Positions 2,648 to 6,880 of a DNA stretch of 7,939 nt are shown here, one piece after another. How positions within the stretch are numbered: position 1 is the first letter of the stretch; every line of letters begins with the position of its first letter. The translations under genes and the position numbers were made by a program. Origin of the DNA: Candidatus Woesearchaeota archaeon (GTDB lineage: Archaea; Nanobdellota; Nanobdellia; CSSed11-243R1); the NCBI GenBank assembly GCA_007133845.1, contig SLLY01000038.1, forward strand, positions 1 to 7,939, read 5' to 3'. The notes below the pieces were generated by a model, which was given only the letters and a program-made list of their open reading frames with translations, was not told where the DNA came from and did not search any database.

Positions 2648-3916
2648 ATGAAATTTGTAAAAATAGAAGAAATACTTGACGGAAAGCACACAGATAAAAA
2701 AGTAGCCATACGTGGATGGGTTTACAGAGAAAGAAAGCAAAAAAAAGTTTCATTCTTTTTGATAAGAGATGATTCTGGCATAATTCAAACAACGATCAAA
2801 TTAGATTCTAAAGACTGGGAAAATTCTCAAGAACTTTCAATTGAAGCGTCAGTACAAATTGAGGGTGTTGTGAAAAAAGATGATAGAGCGCCCGGCGGAT
2901 ATGAAATAAAAACCGAAAAACTTGAAATTGTGGGACTTGCAGAAAGATTTCCAATCACCAAAGACAAAAGCGAAGAATTTCTAAGAGATGTAAGACATTT
3001 ATGGATACGAAGCAGAAAAATGACAAACATTTTGAAAGTAAGAAGTGCAGTATTCGAAGCCATACATCAATTTTACAAGAAGAAAGGATATTCAGAAATT
3101 CAATCACCTTCATTTACTAAGTCTGCATGTGAAGGAGGTTCAACTCTTTTTGAAGTAGATTATTTTGGTGAGAAAGCATATTTATCTCAATCTTGGCAAC
3201 TATATGCAGAAGCAATGATATTTTCAATACCTAAAATTTATTGCATAGCTCCAAGTTTCAGAGCTGAAAAAAGCAGAACAATTAGACACCTTGCAGAATA
3301 TTGGCATCATGAAATGGAAACAGCATGGATGAACTTTGACGAACTCTTGAAATTTCAAGAAGAATTTATTGTTTTTATAGCAAATTATGTCGCAGACAAA
3401 TGTAAAAAGGAATTAGAAGAACTTGAAAGAAATGTGGATGAATTGAAAAATTTAAAAGTCCCTTTTAAGAGAATGACTTACGAAGAAGCAATTAAAAAAT
3501 TAGGTAAAAAATGGGGACACGACTTGACAGATGCAGAAGAAAGAAAACTCGTCAAACAAATTGGAGAACCTGTTTTTATAACACATTTCCCCAGAGAAAT
3601 GAAAGCATTCTATATGCAGCCAGATTCGGAAAATCCAAAGACTGTCTTAGCTGCTGATTTATTAATTCCAGGTGTGGGAGAAACAACAGGCGGAAGTGAA
3701 AGAATAGACAATGCAAAAACACTTGAAGAATCATTAAAAATTTTCAAACTTAATAAAAAGGATTACAAATGGTATATGGATTTAAGAAAATTTGGAAGTA
3801 TACCTCATTCAGGATTCGGATTGGGAGTTGAAAGATTAGTTATGTGGTTTGCAGGCGCAGAACATATAATGGACACGATTCCTTTCCCAAGAACAATGAA
3901 CAGACTGGAACCTTGA
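2648..3916 (+). CDS. asnS: Asparaginyl-tRNA synthetase
   Basis: This cytosolic class IIb synthetase charges tRNA-Asn with asparagine using ATP. At 422 residues it is about the usual length for archaeal AsnRS. An OB-fold anticodon-binding domain (about 18-95, starting VAIRGWVYRER) precedes the catalytic domain. Motif 1 lies around 138-156. ACEGGSTLF (160-168) and YLSQSWQLY (178-186) line the amino acid pocket. Motif 2 is FRAEKSRTIRH (204-214), followed by the AsnRS-type YWHHEMETAW rather than the AspRS form. GETTGGSERI (344-353) and motif 3 GFGLGVER (389-396) complete the site. The OB domain rules out the anticodon-domain-less AsnRS paralogues related to asparagine synthetase. W183 stands where close relatives carry a small residue (see findings). 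A small membrane gene follows after 12 bases. Confidence 0.96.
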   Translation: MKFVKIEEILDGKHTDKKVAIRGWVYRERKQKKVSFFLIRDDSGIIQTTIKLDSKDWENSQELSIEASVQIEGVVKKDDRAPGGYEIKTEKLEIVGLAERFPITKDKSEEFLRDVRHLWIRSRKMTNILKVRSAVFEAIHQFYKKKGYSEIQSPSFTKSACEGGSTLFEVDYFGEKAYLSQSWQLYAEAMIFSIPKIYCIAPSFRAEKSRTIRHLAEYWHHEMETAWMNFDELLKFQEEFIVFIANYVADKCKKELEELERNVDELKNLKVPFKRMTYEEAIKKLGKKWGHDLTDAEERKLVKQIGEPVFITHFPREMKAFYMQPDSENPKTVLAADLLIPGVGETTGGSERIDNAKTLEESLKIFKLNKKDYKWYMDLRKFGSIPHSGFGLGVERLVMWFAGAEHIMDTIPFPRTMNRLEP

Positions 3917-3928
3917 TTTGGTGAATTT

Positions 3929-4150
3929 ATGAACAAAAAATTAATATCTGTGCTTGGAAAAACAACTTTTTTGTTTGGATTGCTTGTGTGGTTATATGTA
4001 ATAACAATGCAAATAGTAAGACCTGAAAGTGTAGCATGGACTTTCACACATTGGTTTAGAATGAGAATGAGTTTTGTCGGAATAATTTGTTTCGTTGCAT
4101 CTGTATTTGGTTTTATGGTTTGGCAATATTTAAAATTTGAATCTAAGTAG
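3929..4150 (+). CDS. Small membrane protein, two transmembrane helices
   Basis: The product is a 73-residue protein with two clear hydrophobic helices, at about 10-29 and 49-67. They are joined by a loop containing RPESVAWTFTHWFRMRM. The basic HWFRMRM before helix 2 and the lysines at the N-terminus suggest that helix 2 begins on the cytoplasmic side, but topology is uncertain. Tryptophan is frequent (W21, W37, W42, W65), typical of membrane interfaces. No family is recognised. It lies 12 bases after asnS with a GGTGA ribosome-binding site (3920-3924) 4 bases before the ATG, so it is probably cotranscribed with asnS. Its last 21 bases overlap the end of pelA on the other strand. Confidence 0.75.
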   Translation: MNKKLISVLGKTTFLFGLLVWLYVITMQIVRPESVAWTFTHWFRMRMSFVGIICFVASVFGFMVWQYLKFESK

Positions 4151-5191
4151 AGCCCCAATTTTCATATCTGCAAATCTTTCACCAGATTCGTGTTCATCAG
4201 ATATAATCATTATTTCTCCACCTTGCTTTTCAACATTTTCCATTAATTTGTCCAATTCTTCAAACATTTCCTTTTCTTTCAGTTCTTCGATATATTTATC
4301 TGAAATGAGAAGAATTTCAACAGCACTATAATCTACAGCTTTTTTTACTTCTTTTATTCCATAAGTGGCTAGATTTTCTTTGGAAACCTGTTCGAAGAAT
4401 TTTTCAACCATTTTTGTTTCTTTAGCAATTCTACTTCCTTTAACAACCTTTTCAACAGCGCCTCTTTTGATGAGTTCGTTTACTCCATTTTTTCCATGCG
4501 CCGAAATTTTAAAAAGTTGTATTTTATTTTTTAGTTTTGGAAATTTTTCTAAAGTTTTTCTAAAATTTTCAGTTAAGAAACCAACACCTCCAAATGCTAT
4601 TTTATTTATATTCTTAGATTGTGATATTTCATTCAACATTTTTGCAAGTTCATTTAGATATTCTTCTCTACTCTTTTCATAAAGCTTTTTAGCATCCTCT
4701 CTTTTTCCCGGAAGACTTTTAGATAAATCCGATAAATATTCTATACCAAATTCTTTTAATAGAGCTATTGTAGCATTGCCATAATCTGCTGCACACAAAA
4801 TCAATTTTGGCTTTTTTGTAGATTCGACAGCATCCTTTATTCTTTCAATCTGCCATTTTTTCCAATTTTCTTTTTTTATTGTTAAAGTATCCCCTATGTC
4901 AATTGTTATTGGTTGATAGACTCCTTGAGGTATGGTTGGATTTGAAGATTCTTTTATGGTTCCCAATAATCGCAATCTATTTTTTTCAAACTCTAACTTT
5001 TCAACATCTATAAGAACGGTTATTTTGATGCGTTTTTCAGATTGAGATTCTCTTTGTTTTATAGCTCTTGTTGAAGTTCCCTTTACCAAATCGCCATTTT
5101 CTATTATTTTGAAAAGTATCCATAAATCATCTAAATTATTTATTTTTACTTTTATTATTCCTTCTTTAAAATATTGTTTTAAAACCTGCAT
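4130..5191 (-). CDS. pelA: Pelota (Dom34-type) ribosome rescue factor
   Basis: Pelota, an eRF1 relative, enters the A site of stalled ribosomes with an aEF1A/ABCE1-type partner and promotes subunit splitting. At 353 residues it matches archaeal pelota. The N-terminal Sm-like domain (1-125) contains the typical DDLWILFKIIENGDLV and TTR-like segment. The central domain (about 128-260) has PGKR (161-164) and no GGQ, so it is not a peptide-release factor. The C-terminal eL30-like domain (262-353) has ETKMVEKFF, LATYGIKEVKKAVDYSAVE and HESGE (334-338), then GALLRFKF. All three domains are complete. The ATG at 5191 is supported by a TATA box about 25 bases upstream and no leader. The gene is divergent from the zinc-ribbon gene. 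Confidence 0.96.
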   Translation of the reverse strand: MQVLKQYFKEGIIKVKINNLDDLWILFKIIENGDLVKGTSTRAIKQRESQSEKRIKITVLIDVEKLEFEKNRLRLLGTIKESSNPTIPQGVYQPITIDIGDTLTIKKENWKKWQIERIKDAVESTKKPKLILCAADYGNATIALLKEFGIEYLSDLSKSLPGKREDAKKLYEKSREEYLNELAKMLNEISQSKNINKIAFGGVGFLTENFRKTLEKFPKLKNKIQLFKISAHGKNGVNELIKRGAVEKVVKGSRIAKETKMVEKFFEQVSKENLATYGIKEVKKAVDYSAVEILLISDKYIEELKEKEMFEELDKLMENVEKQGGEIMIISDEHESGERFADMKIGALLRFKF

Positions 5192-5212
5192 GTATTATCA
5201 ATATTTTAGTGG

Positions 5213-5220
5213 TTTAAAAT
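5213..5220 (-). promoter_or_regulatory. TATA-like box for pelA
   Basis: On the minus strand this reads ATTTTAAA, about 25 bases before the pelA ATG at 5191. It implies a leaderless or nearly leaderless mRNA. Confidence 0.45.
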
Positions 5221-5256
5221 TGTTTTCTCTTTATCTATTTTACAGTATAGTTAATG

Positions 5257-5264
5257 TTATAAAT
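5257..5264 (+). promoter_or_regulatory. TATA box for the zinc-ribbon gene
   Basis: TTATAAAT is identical to the box at 998-1005. Adding the same 28-base offset gives transcription start near 5286, an 11-base leader carrying GGTGG (5287-5291), and then ATG 5297. This argues against the in-frame TTG at 5282, which would lie before the transcript. Confidence 0.55.
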
Positions 5265-5296
5265 GAGGTGATATTTATCTATTGTCGGTGGTAAAT

Positions 5297-5434
5297 ATGA
5301 GCGAACTAAAACAACCACCTTTTAACAGGTGCTCTCAATGTGGTTCTAAAGAAATAGATTTTAAACCACATACAGAAGAAAATTTTTGCAAGAAATGTGG
5401 CACCGTAATAGAGGAAGAGCTTGTTAAAGGTTGA
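5297..5434 (+). CDS. Stand-alone TFIIB-like zinc-ribbon protein (45 aa)
   Basis: This short open frame encodes 45 residues with two CxxC knuckles, C12-S-Q-C15-G and C31-K-K-C34-G. They are separated by 15 residues and followed by TVIEEE. This is the layout of the N-terminal zinc ribbon of transcription factor B, where the second knuckle is followed by a similar VIEE segment. The TFB B-finger and cyclin repeats are missing, and nothing in any frame downstream restores them, so it is a complete mini-protein rather than a frameshifted TFB. It should bind one zinc ion. It could contact RNA polymerase or the ribosome, but the partner is not visible. A TATA box at 5257 and GGTGG five bases before the ATG support expression. 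It is divergent from pelA with a 105-base spacer. Confidence 0.8.
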   Translation: MSELKQPPFNRCSQCGSKEIDFKPHTEENFCKKCGTVIEEELVKG

Positions 5435-5535
5435 AAAAATTTTATTTGATTCTGAAGATTTACTTAAATTCATTTATTTAATTTAGATAATATCAATTAT
5501 TTCTTTAATGCTTATGAAATAAAACTTAAAAAATT

Positions 5536-6645
5536 CTAGAATAACCCGAAAATTAAAAGCGTTTGATAAATTATTCCAATTGAAAAGATGAGTATGGAAA
5601 AATAAATAGGTATTTTTCCACCAGGAACTTTAAATTCACACTTTTTCATTTTTTCTCTTTCTTTAAGAGTCAATAACATTACAAGTATACCTAACATTCC
5701 ACCTGCATATGTTCCTGAAAGTTGAAGCATTTTAACAAAACCTAGGTTAGCATAGACATATATCATGAAAGGAATAAACGCTGACAAAAACCAAGAAGTT
5801 CTTTTATCTACACCTATGTCTTCTATGTAAATGTGTTTAATTGCATCAGCTAGTGCTATAAAAGGAATAGTCATCGCTAGCACAACAAATACATTTCCAA
5901 GCATTTCATATTTGGGAAGTCCAATTAATGCAACTTCTTCTACATTAGTTCCAAGACTTCCTACAAAGACATAAGAAAATAATATGTATATTGAAAAAAC
6001 TAAAATCATTGCAATCAATATTGCCGAAAAAAGTTTCTTGCTATTACCAACTGTTTTTTTCATTTCAGGAATTACATTATATCCTAAACAGGCGAATAAA
6101 ACAATTCCGAAAGGTGCAAATATTTTATTTAATTGAAAATCAGCCACATTTGCAGTTTCAACATTCATAAAGAAAATAATTATAAAAAATATTAAAATAG
6201 CAATTTTTACAATAGCAACACTGAAATCTAACTTAGAAAATCTTTTGAAACCAAGAAATATTAACATAGCCGCAAAAACAAAAAAGGCACTACCCATAAG
6301 CAAAGGTTCTGCACCAGTTATGTTAGCAAGTGCTAATCCAACAGCAGTGATGTATGCAATTATTGCGGTGTATATTCCAAATGTTTCAACTATAAGTGTG
6401 AAATATTTTCCCCGTTTTCCAAAATATTCTTTTGCAAAACCTGAGATTAAATGAACCTTTTTGTTATTAAGACTCATTTCTGCAACATATAAAGTCATAA
6501 AGGTTGTTGCAATTCCAATTAAAATAAGAGTTACAACACCAGTTAAAAATCCTGTTTGTGCGAAAACGTAAGGGAAACCTAATATGGATGCGCCTGCTAT
6601 TGCGCTCACCATTAATGCTATTGCGGTTAAAAACGACAAATCCAT
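5536..6645 (-). CDS. Amino acid permease, AAAP/HAAAP-like (APC superfamily)
   Basis: This 369-residue integral membrane transporter has about 11 hydrophobic helices (roughly 6-28, 33-55, 80-105, 115-132, 140-162, 174-196, 205-230, 250-272, 285-303, 312-329, 347-367). The first helix carries GASILGFPY (18-26), the unwound glycine-rich segment of the amino acid/auxin permease and aromatic amino acid permease families. Helix 6 has the matching LFACLGYNVIPEM. Such proteins move amino acids with a proton or sodium ion; the substrate cannot be read from sequence. A scavenging role would suit an organism with limited biosynthesis, but this is inference. The start is right at helix 1, with an AT palindrome 28 bases upstream as promoter and no leader. 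It is divergent from the tRNA-Glu gene. Confidence 0.85.
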   Translation of the reverse strand: MDLSFLTAIALMVSAIAGASILGFPYVFAQTGFLTGVVTLILIGIATTFMTLYVAEMSLNNKKVHLISGFAKEYFGKRGKYFTLIVETFGIYTAIIAYITAVGLALANITGAEPLLMGSAFFVFAAMLIFLGFKRFSKLDFSVAIVKIAILIFFIIIFFMNVETANVADFQLNKIFAPFGIVLFACLGYNVIPEMKKTVGNSKKLFSAILIAMILVFSIYILFSYVFVGSLGTNVEEVALIGLPKYEMLGNVFVVLAMTIPFIALADAIKHIYIEDIGVDKRTSWFLSAFIPFMIYVYANLGFVKMLQLSGTYAGGMLGILVMLLTLKEREKMKKCEFKVPGGKIPIYFSILIFSIGIIYQTLLIFGLF

Positions 6646-6678: not shown

Positions 6679-6703
6679 TACATTTTATGCTCCCATAGTC
6701 TAG

Positions 6704-6760
6704 GAATCTTTTCTTATGAAGAAAAACTTCATAAAAATAAGTAAAGAAAAGATTGGACAA
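6704..6760 (+). other. tRNA intron 1, D-loop (after nucleotide 15), 57 nt
   Basis: The 5' junction has GTCT (6698-6701) pairing with GGAC (6755-6758), four base pairs including one G-U. They are flanked by three-base bulges AGG (6702-6704) and AAT (6759-6761), the bulge-helix-bulge layout cut by archaeal tRNA endonuclease. Cutting after the second bulge base on each side gives 6704-6760 and a normal D-loop. Inside, an 11-bp perfect stem (6705-6715 with 6744-6754) starts directly at the bulge. It encloses a second hairpin, ATGAAG/CTTCAT with an A5 loop (6716-6732). The outer helix beyond the 3' bulge is weak, so the motif is of the relaxed type. Confidence 0.85.
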
Positions 6761-6806
6761 TTCGGTCAAGGATGTCGGCCTCTCGAGCCGAAGACTCGGG
6801 TTCAAA

Positions 6807-6855
6807 AGAGCTTTTCTTTGCGAAAGAAAACTTCGGAAAAGAAAGCTATTGGAAG
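6807..6855 (+). other. tRNA intron 2, T-loop (59/60), 49 nt
   Basis: TTCA of the T-loop (6801-6804) pairs with TGGA (6850-6853). The 5' bulge is AAA (6805-6807) and the 3' bulge AGT (6854-6856), and the T-stem serves directly as the outer helix. Cutting after the second bulge base on each side restores the seven-base loop TTCAAAT. The inner stem is AGCTTT/AAAGCT (6809-6814 with 6842-6847), extended by CTTT/AAAG after a bulged T. It is topped by a hairpin CGAAAG/CTTCG with an A4 loop. One extra A (6848) near the inner stem makes the motif slightly irregular. Confidence 0.85.
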
Positions 6856-6880
6856 TCCCGGTGGGAGCGTATAATAATAC

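Follow-up and report, generated by a model that had tools for sequence, protein, structure and literature searches.

The two introns of an archaeal tRNA-Glu gene as members of a dispersed and probably mobile hairpin family

The closest prior work on transposing tRNA introns is reportedly that of Fujishima et al. 2010, which we know through the papers citing it. Transposition of tRNA introns has been reported earlier in the Thermoproteales (PMC4090602, PMC4033280), and the mechanism by which such introns are transposed or gained was still called unknown in 2014 (PMC4090602); here and below, statements about cited papers refer to excerpts of them. In this work we analysed the entire 7,939-base contig C42 (the window) of the Woesearchaeota genome G000, which comprises 517 kb in 76 contigs and is 78% complete. 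The window carries a tRNA-Glu(CTC) gene with two predicted introns at non-canonical positions, one in the D-loop and one in the T-loop, which the original prediction had taken for copies of each other. Our results indicate that the two introns are probably separate members of a dispersed hairpin family. This family is likely a small mobile element with insertion at the DNA level, and splicing is predicted to remove those of its copies that lie in tRNA genes.

Like the transposing introns of the Thermoproteales, near-identical introns occurred here in different tRNA genes, 48 of 49 bases being shared between tRNA-Glu of G000 and tRNA-Ala of the sister species G001. Unlike them, as far as the excerpts describe, the hairpin family occurs among DPANN relatives and in a handful of other archaeal groups and not in the order Thermoproteales, and it combines one hairpin core across phyla with copies outside tRNA genes, some of them between target repeats. 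An integrating element of Caldiarchaeum (PMC3293823) offers a second parallel, since a tRNA fragment is repeated beside an intact tRNA gene and intron gain is linked to mobile DNA, but that element is a 1,868-bp insertion with a putative recombinase, whereas the hairpin elements are tens of bases long and hold no gene. As in the Asgard archaea (PMC11291895), introns are present in most tRNA genes and often at non-canonical positions; a dispersed intron family like the one found here is not described in the excerpt of that paper. Among the titles and abstract openings surveyed, we found no published description of such a family in DPANN archaea.

Miniature inverted-repeat transposable elements (MITEs) and repetitive extragenic palindromic (REP) sequences are short non-coding hairpins present in many copies, with target duplication in MITEs. 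The hairpin family resembles MITEs in its dispersed non-coding copies with inverted repeats and in its target duplications, but these are of variable length and not fixed and short. It differs from both MITEs and REP sequences in having no known partner transposase (none was searched for) and in that its copies in tRNA genes are predicted introns.

The hairpin family and its target repeats

Three parts make up the family core: a CTTTTCTTT...AAAGAAAAG hairpin, a linker resembling CTTGACC or CTGCACC, and AAAAGAAA after it. Many different tRNA genes have this core in the D-loop, anticodon loop or T-arm; it was also located within or adjoining other stable RNA genes, and where protein genes start or end. 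RNAalifold gave no consensus pairs on the core alignment because the MAFFT alignment tracks sequence and not stems, and the family model, built from 16 cores (15 from G000), was therefore a sequence-only one whose weak matches are unsafe. As the search scored at most 150 candidates per genome, the counts are lower bounds. At E ≤ 0.01, 24 of the 36 genomes had a match. The genomes grouped as f1 had 63 (G004), 35 (G003), 24 (G000), 22 (G005), 15 (G001) and 6 (G002), other rich genomes had 14 (G006), 14 (G019), 13 (G030) and 10 (G031), G018 had 6, and the remaining 25 had between 0 and 3, single ones among which may be chance.

The T-loop intron of the window matched the model at 6811-6844 (E 6e-5, the sequence being itself part of the model). 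In the tally for G000, one minus-strand match (C53:6318), an antisense reading of a tRNA-Ser intron, was dropped and the D-loop intron of the window was added, which left 24 copies. Nineteen of these lie in 15 tRNA genes. The remaining five comprise three copies located 3' of tRNA-Phe, a fourth immediately 3' of the signal recognition particle (SRP) RNA gene (Rfam RF01857) and a fifth that follows a gene end. In L060, the sequence separating an element copy from the SRP RNA gene (4300-5900) resembles a further structured RNA, with no other Rfam family at its cut-off. Allowing up to two mismatches, a 16-base core gave 22 sites in G000 against none for the reversed pattern, 7 of the 22 being read as chance matches in coding sequence. 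Matches in C65, read as a lysine-rich coding repeat, and two viral_contigs matches that look coding were dropped as family copies.

Searched more widely, an exact 18-mer core was found in 7 of 371 genomes of the phylum and in none of the 371 with the reversed pattern, and a 24-base core pattern with three two-fold positions gave 32 loci among 84,980 prokaryote genomes, all archaeal by title. These belong to Woesearchaeota, Nanoarchaeota, Parvarchaeota, Micrarchaeota, Diapherotrites, Altiarchaeota, Thermoplasmata and an unassigned archaeon, Dive96_bin10.467; the Parvarchaeota are placed in the kingdom Nanobdellati, which we take to be the DPANN group. Once read, 19 of the 32 were tRNA introns, 7 adjoined tRNA genes and 6 could not be confidently placed in or beside a tRNA gene.

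The family model gave 243 matches at E ≤ 0.01. The 150 of these that were listed, together with six more from G000 (five further matches and the D-loop intron of the window), made 156 copies, 154 of which, from 14 genomes, were readable. We assigned 99 of them to tRNA introns (D-loop, anticodon loop or T-arm) and 55 to other sites, among them sites that adjoin or lie within genes for tRNA, rRNA, SRP RNA and RNase P RNA, and sites at gene ends. Rfam confirmed copies within 23S rRNA (L241), at the 3' end of 23S rRNA and within RNase P RNA (L180), and 3' of 16S rRNA (L161, L184 and L249). The copy within the 23S rRNA gene of L241 (G003:C22, 544-576) is antisense.

Flanking direct repeats (score cut-off ≥14) were sought around 50 of the 51 copies then classed outside tRNA genes, one having too short a flank. 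They were present at 15 of the 50, compared with 112 of 31,620 control positions (0.35%) in the same loci. Two of the 15 were element on element, leaving 13 of 50 at 11 loci (binomial p 4e-21, positions taken as independent). Four of the 32 named loci also had target repeats. Three of them are from Micrarchaeota: in L125 (about 6750-6870 of the reverse complement) the first 41 bp of a GAPDH-like gene, which we take to be GAPDH from its sequence, are doubled around one element; in L126 (about 3900-4080) the 5' part of tRNA-Thr (26 bp) occurs three times with the element twice between; and in L136 (about 800-1050) a tRNA 3' end is doubled around an element. The fourth, L122, is from Thermoplasmata. 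These long direct repeats of the target around copies suggest insertion into DNA. In those cases read by eye that could be judged, the repeat often had its outer edge at the end of a transcript or gene, or no more than a few bases from it, as at the start codon in L125 and two bases before a tRNA in G029:C15.

Related genomes provided further comparisons of filled and empty sites. At a junction of two genes that we presume from their sequences to be S27e and eIF2alpha, the elements of G004 are enclosed by two copies of the S27e gene end. A single gene end and no recognisable element were seen in G001 and G005, and G003 has another element-like sequence. A clean empty site was not found for the repeat in C13 of G004, where G003 has a target-element-target arrangement too. 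Among tRNA genes, tRNA-Val(GAC) has a 37/38 intron in both G000 and G001 and a D-loop intron in G000 alone, while tRNA-Gly(TCC) has a T-loop intron in G001 and not in G000 (read by eye, the solver having left this intron, the third of the G001 gene, unresolved). The tRNA-Ser(GCT) gene of G000 has three family-type introns.

Other origins of the introns

Introns could also spread by gene conversion only, through recombination in shared tRNA arms and with no mobile element. The T-loop sequence varies little among the tRNAs read, and both window introns had their best full-length matches at the same site of other tRNAs. However, the family cores mix between sites: the nearest neighbour was at the same site for 18 of 40 cores, which is not significantly above the 13.9 expected (704 of 5000 shuffles were as high), and 55 of the 154 copies are not tRNA introns at all, part of them lying between target repeats. 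We therefore regard gene conversion as unlikely to be the whole explanation, but it may be the source of part of the same-site spread.

An RNA route, in which a spliced-out intron would be ligated to other RNAs and the resulting chimera reverse-transcribed into DNA, appears improbable. It would agree with the orientation of the accepted intron copies, all of which are sense to the tRNA (1 of 154 on the opposite strand, against 56, at the threshold used), and with the outer edges of target repeats at or near transcript or gene ends in the cases read. Nevertheless, no RVT_1 protein was found in G003, G004, G006 or G019, which have 35, 63, 14 and 14 model matches, and G006 is 99% complete. Only 4 of the 36 genomes have such a protein, though two of these (G001 and G030) are rich in copies. 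A reverse transcriptase is thus disfavoured as the engine of spread.

The original prediction held that one intron had arisen from the other within tRNA-Glu by duplication or transposition. The blocks on which it relied are all present in the sequence: CTTTTCTT at 6708-6715 and 6811-6818, the hairpin blocks GAAGAAAAACTTC at 6718-6730 and GAAAGAAAACTTC at 6822-6834, and ATTGGA at 6752-6757 and 6848-6853. The likeness also exceeded that of dinucleotide shuffles of both introns, locally (score 15 versus a mean of 8.8, sd 1.7; 14 of 2000 shuffles as good) as well as globally (score 8 versus a mean of -3.7, sd 3.9; 5 of 2000), and shuffling within thirds, which kept the arms pyrimidine- or purine-rich, equalled it in 5 of 4000 (local) and 12 of 4000 (global) cases. 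The likeness of the two introns is real but modest. ATTGGA, proposed to supply part of the central helix at both sites, is not the same part of the two introns, since the predicted helix halves (GGAC at 6755-6758 and TGGA at 6850-6853) are one base out of register and each suits its own exon partner, GGAC pairing with GTCT and TGGA with TTCA.

When each of the two introns was compared with the 39 others in a list of 40, 38 from G000 and two from relatives (global z, 200 shuffles each), the pair scored a z of 3.1. Among the matches of the D-loop intron its partner ranked tenth, and in the converse comparison the D-loop intron ranked thirteenth, so that this search of other tRNA introns did not back a copy made within the gene. 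The D-loop intron was most similar to introns in the D-loops of tRNA-Gly(TCC) (z 7.6) and tRNA-Ser(GCT) (z 7.0), and the T-loop intron to the T-loop introns of two tRNA-Ile genes (z 5.5 and 4.7) and to introns of tRNA-Ser(GCT). The T-loop intron that differs at a single base lies in the T-loop of tRNA-Ala(TGC) of G001; its 41-nt core was found once in G000 and once, free of mismatches, in G001 among the 8 genomes searched. The tRNA-Glu genes of other genomes, a comparison that the original prediction had suggested, have family introns in other combinations or none (Table 1). A D-loop intron in tRNA-Glu is common to G000 and several relatives, and in the four f1 tRNA-Glu genes seen (one in G000, two in G004 and one in G005) a T-loop intron was present only in that of G000. 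No tRNA-Glu match was obtained in G001, G002 or G003 with the pattern used.

The relatedness of the two introns and a likely history of transposition thus stood, and the derivation of one from the other inside tRNA-Glu was not supported. Because nearer matches lie in other genes and other tRNA-Glu(CTC) genes hold other combinations of family introns, the D-loop and T-loop introns most likely have separate histories inside the dispersed family. Significant as the likeness of the pair is, copying within the gene is very improbable given that nine and twelve other introns outscore the partner by global z, that the 48/49 match is in a tRNA-Ala gene, and that D-loop family introns occur without a T-loop intron in tRNA-Glu of G004, G005 and G031. 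Least probable of all is convergence, chance likeness among A/T-rich hairpins under a pairing constraint, which would suit the low sequence complexity and the T-loop intron fold, whose advantage over shuffles is no more than moderate (z -1.8, 14 of 200 equally good), but runs against the pair still beating segment-preserving shuffles, the 16-base and 18-mer cores that their reversed patterns never matched, and the archaeal titles of all 32 loci.

The tRNA-Glu gene and its predicted splicing

Splicing of the tRNA-Glu gene was predicted with a solver that takes out candidate bulge-helix-bulge (BHB) introns and then scores the remaining cloverleaf, the central helix and inner stem being scored and the outer helix unscored. 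The joined exons (74 nt; coordinates re-checked) gave a standard complete cloverleaf, GCTCCCA TA GTCT AGTTCGGTCAA GGAT G TCGGC CTCTCGA GCCGA AGAC TCGGG TTCAAAT CCCGG TGGGAGC. Both introns have a predicted BHB with a 4-bp central helix and two 3-nt bulges, with one G-T pair each: GTCT/GGAC with bulges AGG and AAT in the first, and TTCA/TGGA with bulges AAA and AGT in the second. In the runner-up solution the first intron was shortened by one base at either end. The core of the D-loop intron folds at -12.5 kcal/mol (z -4.4 versus shuffles). Neither ARAGORN nor Rfam at its gathering threshold reported a tRNA at the locus, presumably because of its introns, and no Rfam family, those of group I and group II introns included, reached its cut-off anywhere in the window.

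A splicing endonuclease was present in 17 of the 19 genomes searched, and the EndA of G004 (176 aa) aligns across almost its full length with 1a79, which we take to be the EndA of M. jannaschii. G001 has two EndA-like genes (L028, which is C95, and L282, which is C21) where most relatives searched have one, possibly through a paralogue or contamination.

Table 1. The tRNA-Glu(CTC) gene of the window with its predicted introns and cuts (read from the sequence), and tRNA-Glu genes of other genomes
Feature	Position	Strand	Details
tRNA-Glu(CTC) gene, two non-canonical introns	6689-6868	+	exons 6689-6703, 6761-6806, 6856-6868; anticodon CTC 6782-6784
D-loop intron, family member	6704-6760	+	57 nt; splice solver
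T-loop intron at 59/60, family member	6807-6855	+	49 nt; splice solver
First BHB, 5' half	6698-6704	+	helix GTCT 6698-6701, bulge 6702-6704, predicted cut 6703/6704
First BHB, 3' half	6755-6761	+	helix GGAC 6755-6758, bulge 6759-6761, predicted cut 6760/6761
Second BHB, 5' half	6801-6807	+	helix TTCA 6801-6804, bulge 6805-6807, predicted cut 6806/6807
Second BHB, 3' half	6850-6856	+	helix TGGA 6850-6853, bulge 6854-6856, predicted cut 6855/6856
tRNA-Glu(CTC) of G004			37/38 and T-stem family introns
tRNA-Glu(CTC) of G031			D-loop and 37/38 family introns
tRNA-Glu(CTC) of L130, Woesearchaeota genome			T-loop intron with family core
tRNA-Glu(CTC) of G017 and G028			no introns
tRNA-Glu(TTC) of G004			D-loop intron
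tRNA-Glu(TTC) of G005			D-loop and 37/38 introns
tRNA-Glu(TTC) of G031			D-loop intron, sequence different, GC-richer
tRNA-Glu(TTC) of L121, Woesearchaeota genome			T-loop intron

Introns of another kind were seen in two tRNA-Gln genes (TTG in L016 and CTG in L017), whose T-loop introns are alike at 29 of 30 bases and are not of the hairpin family; the gene in L017 has an additional intron, located between its D and anticodon arms, within which GCATAAG is repeated. The window further encodes a D/K/N-class aminoacyl-tRNA synthetase, an eRF1/pelota-like protein and a DUF4013 protein, all three of which fit an archaeon. A pelota-based scan of genome contigs for relatives found nothing. A small open reading frame at 2162-2593 has a weak match, below the cut-off, to a PDDEXK nuclease family.

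Proposed mechanism and meaning

In the mobile-element reading, the core would move at the DNA level, by means of an enzyme or of template switching. What moves is likely the core, with a central-helix half at its 3' end that would be fitted to each site. A copy arriving in a tRNA loop would survive if its ends form a BHB with the local exon; EndA would then cut the intron out and the exons would be joined. Exon joining is carried out by RtcB. We also considered that the target duplication might itself create the BHB, and saw no way in which it could.

Several points weigh against this reading. The core is A/T-rich and of low information, the model was run without a reversed control, the D-loop intron itself matched it weakly (6706-6737, E 0.087), and the strict 18-mer core is absent from G000. 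On the other side, the two best matches of the D-loop intron, both outside the model, were strong (C18:2358, E 8e-6; C53:6243, E 2e-6). The split of the 154 copies owes much to reading by eye. Automatic splicing called 56 tRNA introns at a threshold that gave one on the opposite strand, and 67 when three introns were allowed, a step made without a control; some automatic solutions had the wrong anticodon loop and were used for location alone. A further 36 assignments added by eye gave 103 introns and 51 others, and four automatic calls in G019 and G029 proved wrong and were moved to duplicated tRNA ends. The length of the target repeats is not fixed and varies between about 19 and 41 bp. Direct repeats were not enriched at tRNA introns (4 of 103, two of them copies of the element or a variant and two reassigned as duplicated tRNA ends), and insertion into tRNA loops may therefore go another way, for instance by gene conversion. 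Splicing of both tRNA-Glu introns is a prediction only, the inner stem of the second has 2 of 4 pairs beside the bulge, and no EndA was found in the incomplete G000.

More tentatively, and with less confidence than in the mobility of the family, we suggest that it could be an undescribed archaeal mobile hairpin that has crossed archaeal phyla, making, near stable RNA genes and gene ends, long target duplications that end at transcript ends, so that the gene stays intact, and acting as a BHB intron in tRNA genes; it might then be the engine of tRNA intron gain. How archaea gain tRNA introns is a question described as unsolved (PMC4090602, in excerpt). The family shows insertions at several stages, with copies between target repeats outside tRNA genes, a site filled or empty between sister species, and one core at three tRNA sites. 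From these, the route of intron gain could be deduced by sequence comparison and put to the test. The hairpin family would also be a selfish element, concealed from its host by the host's own tRNA splicing enzyme.
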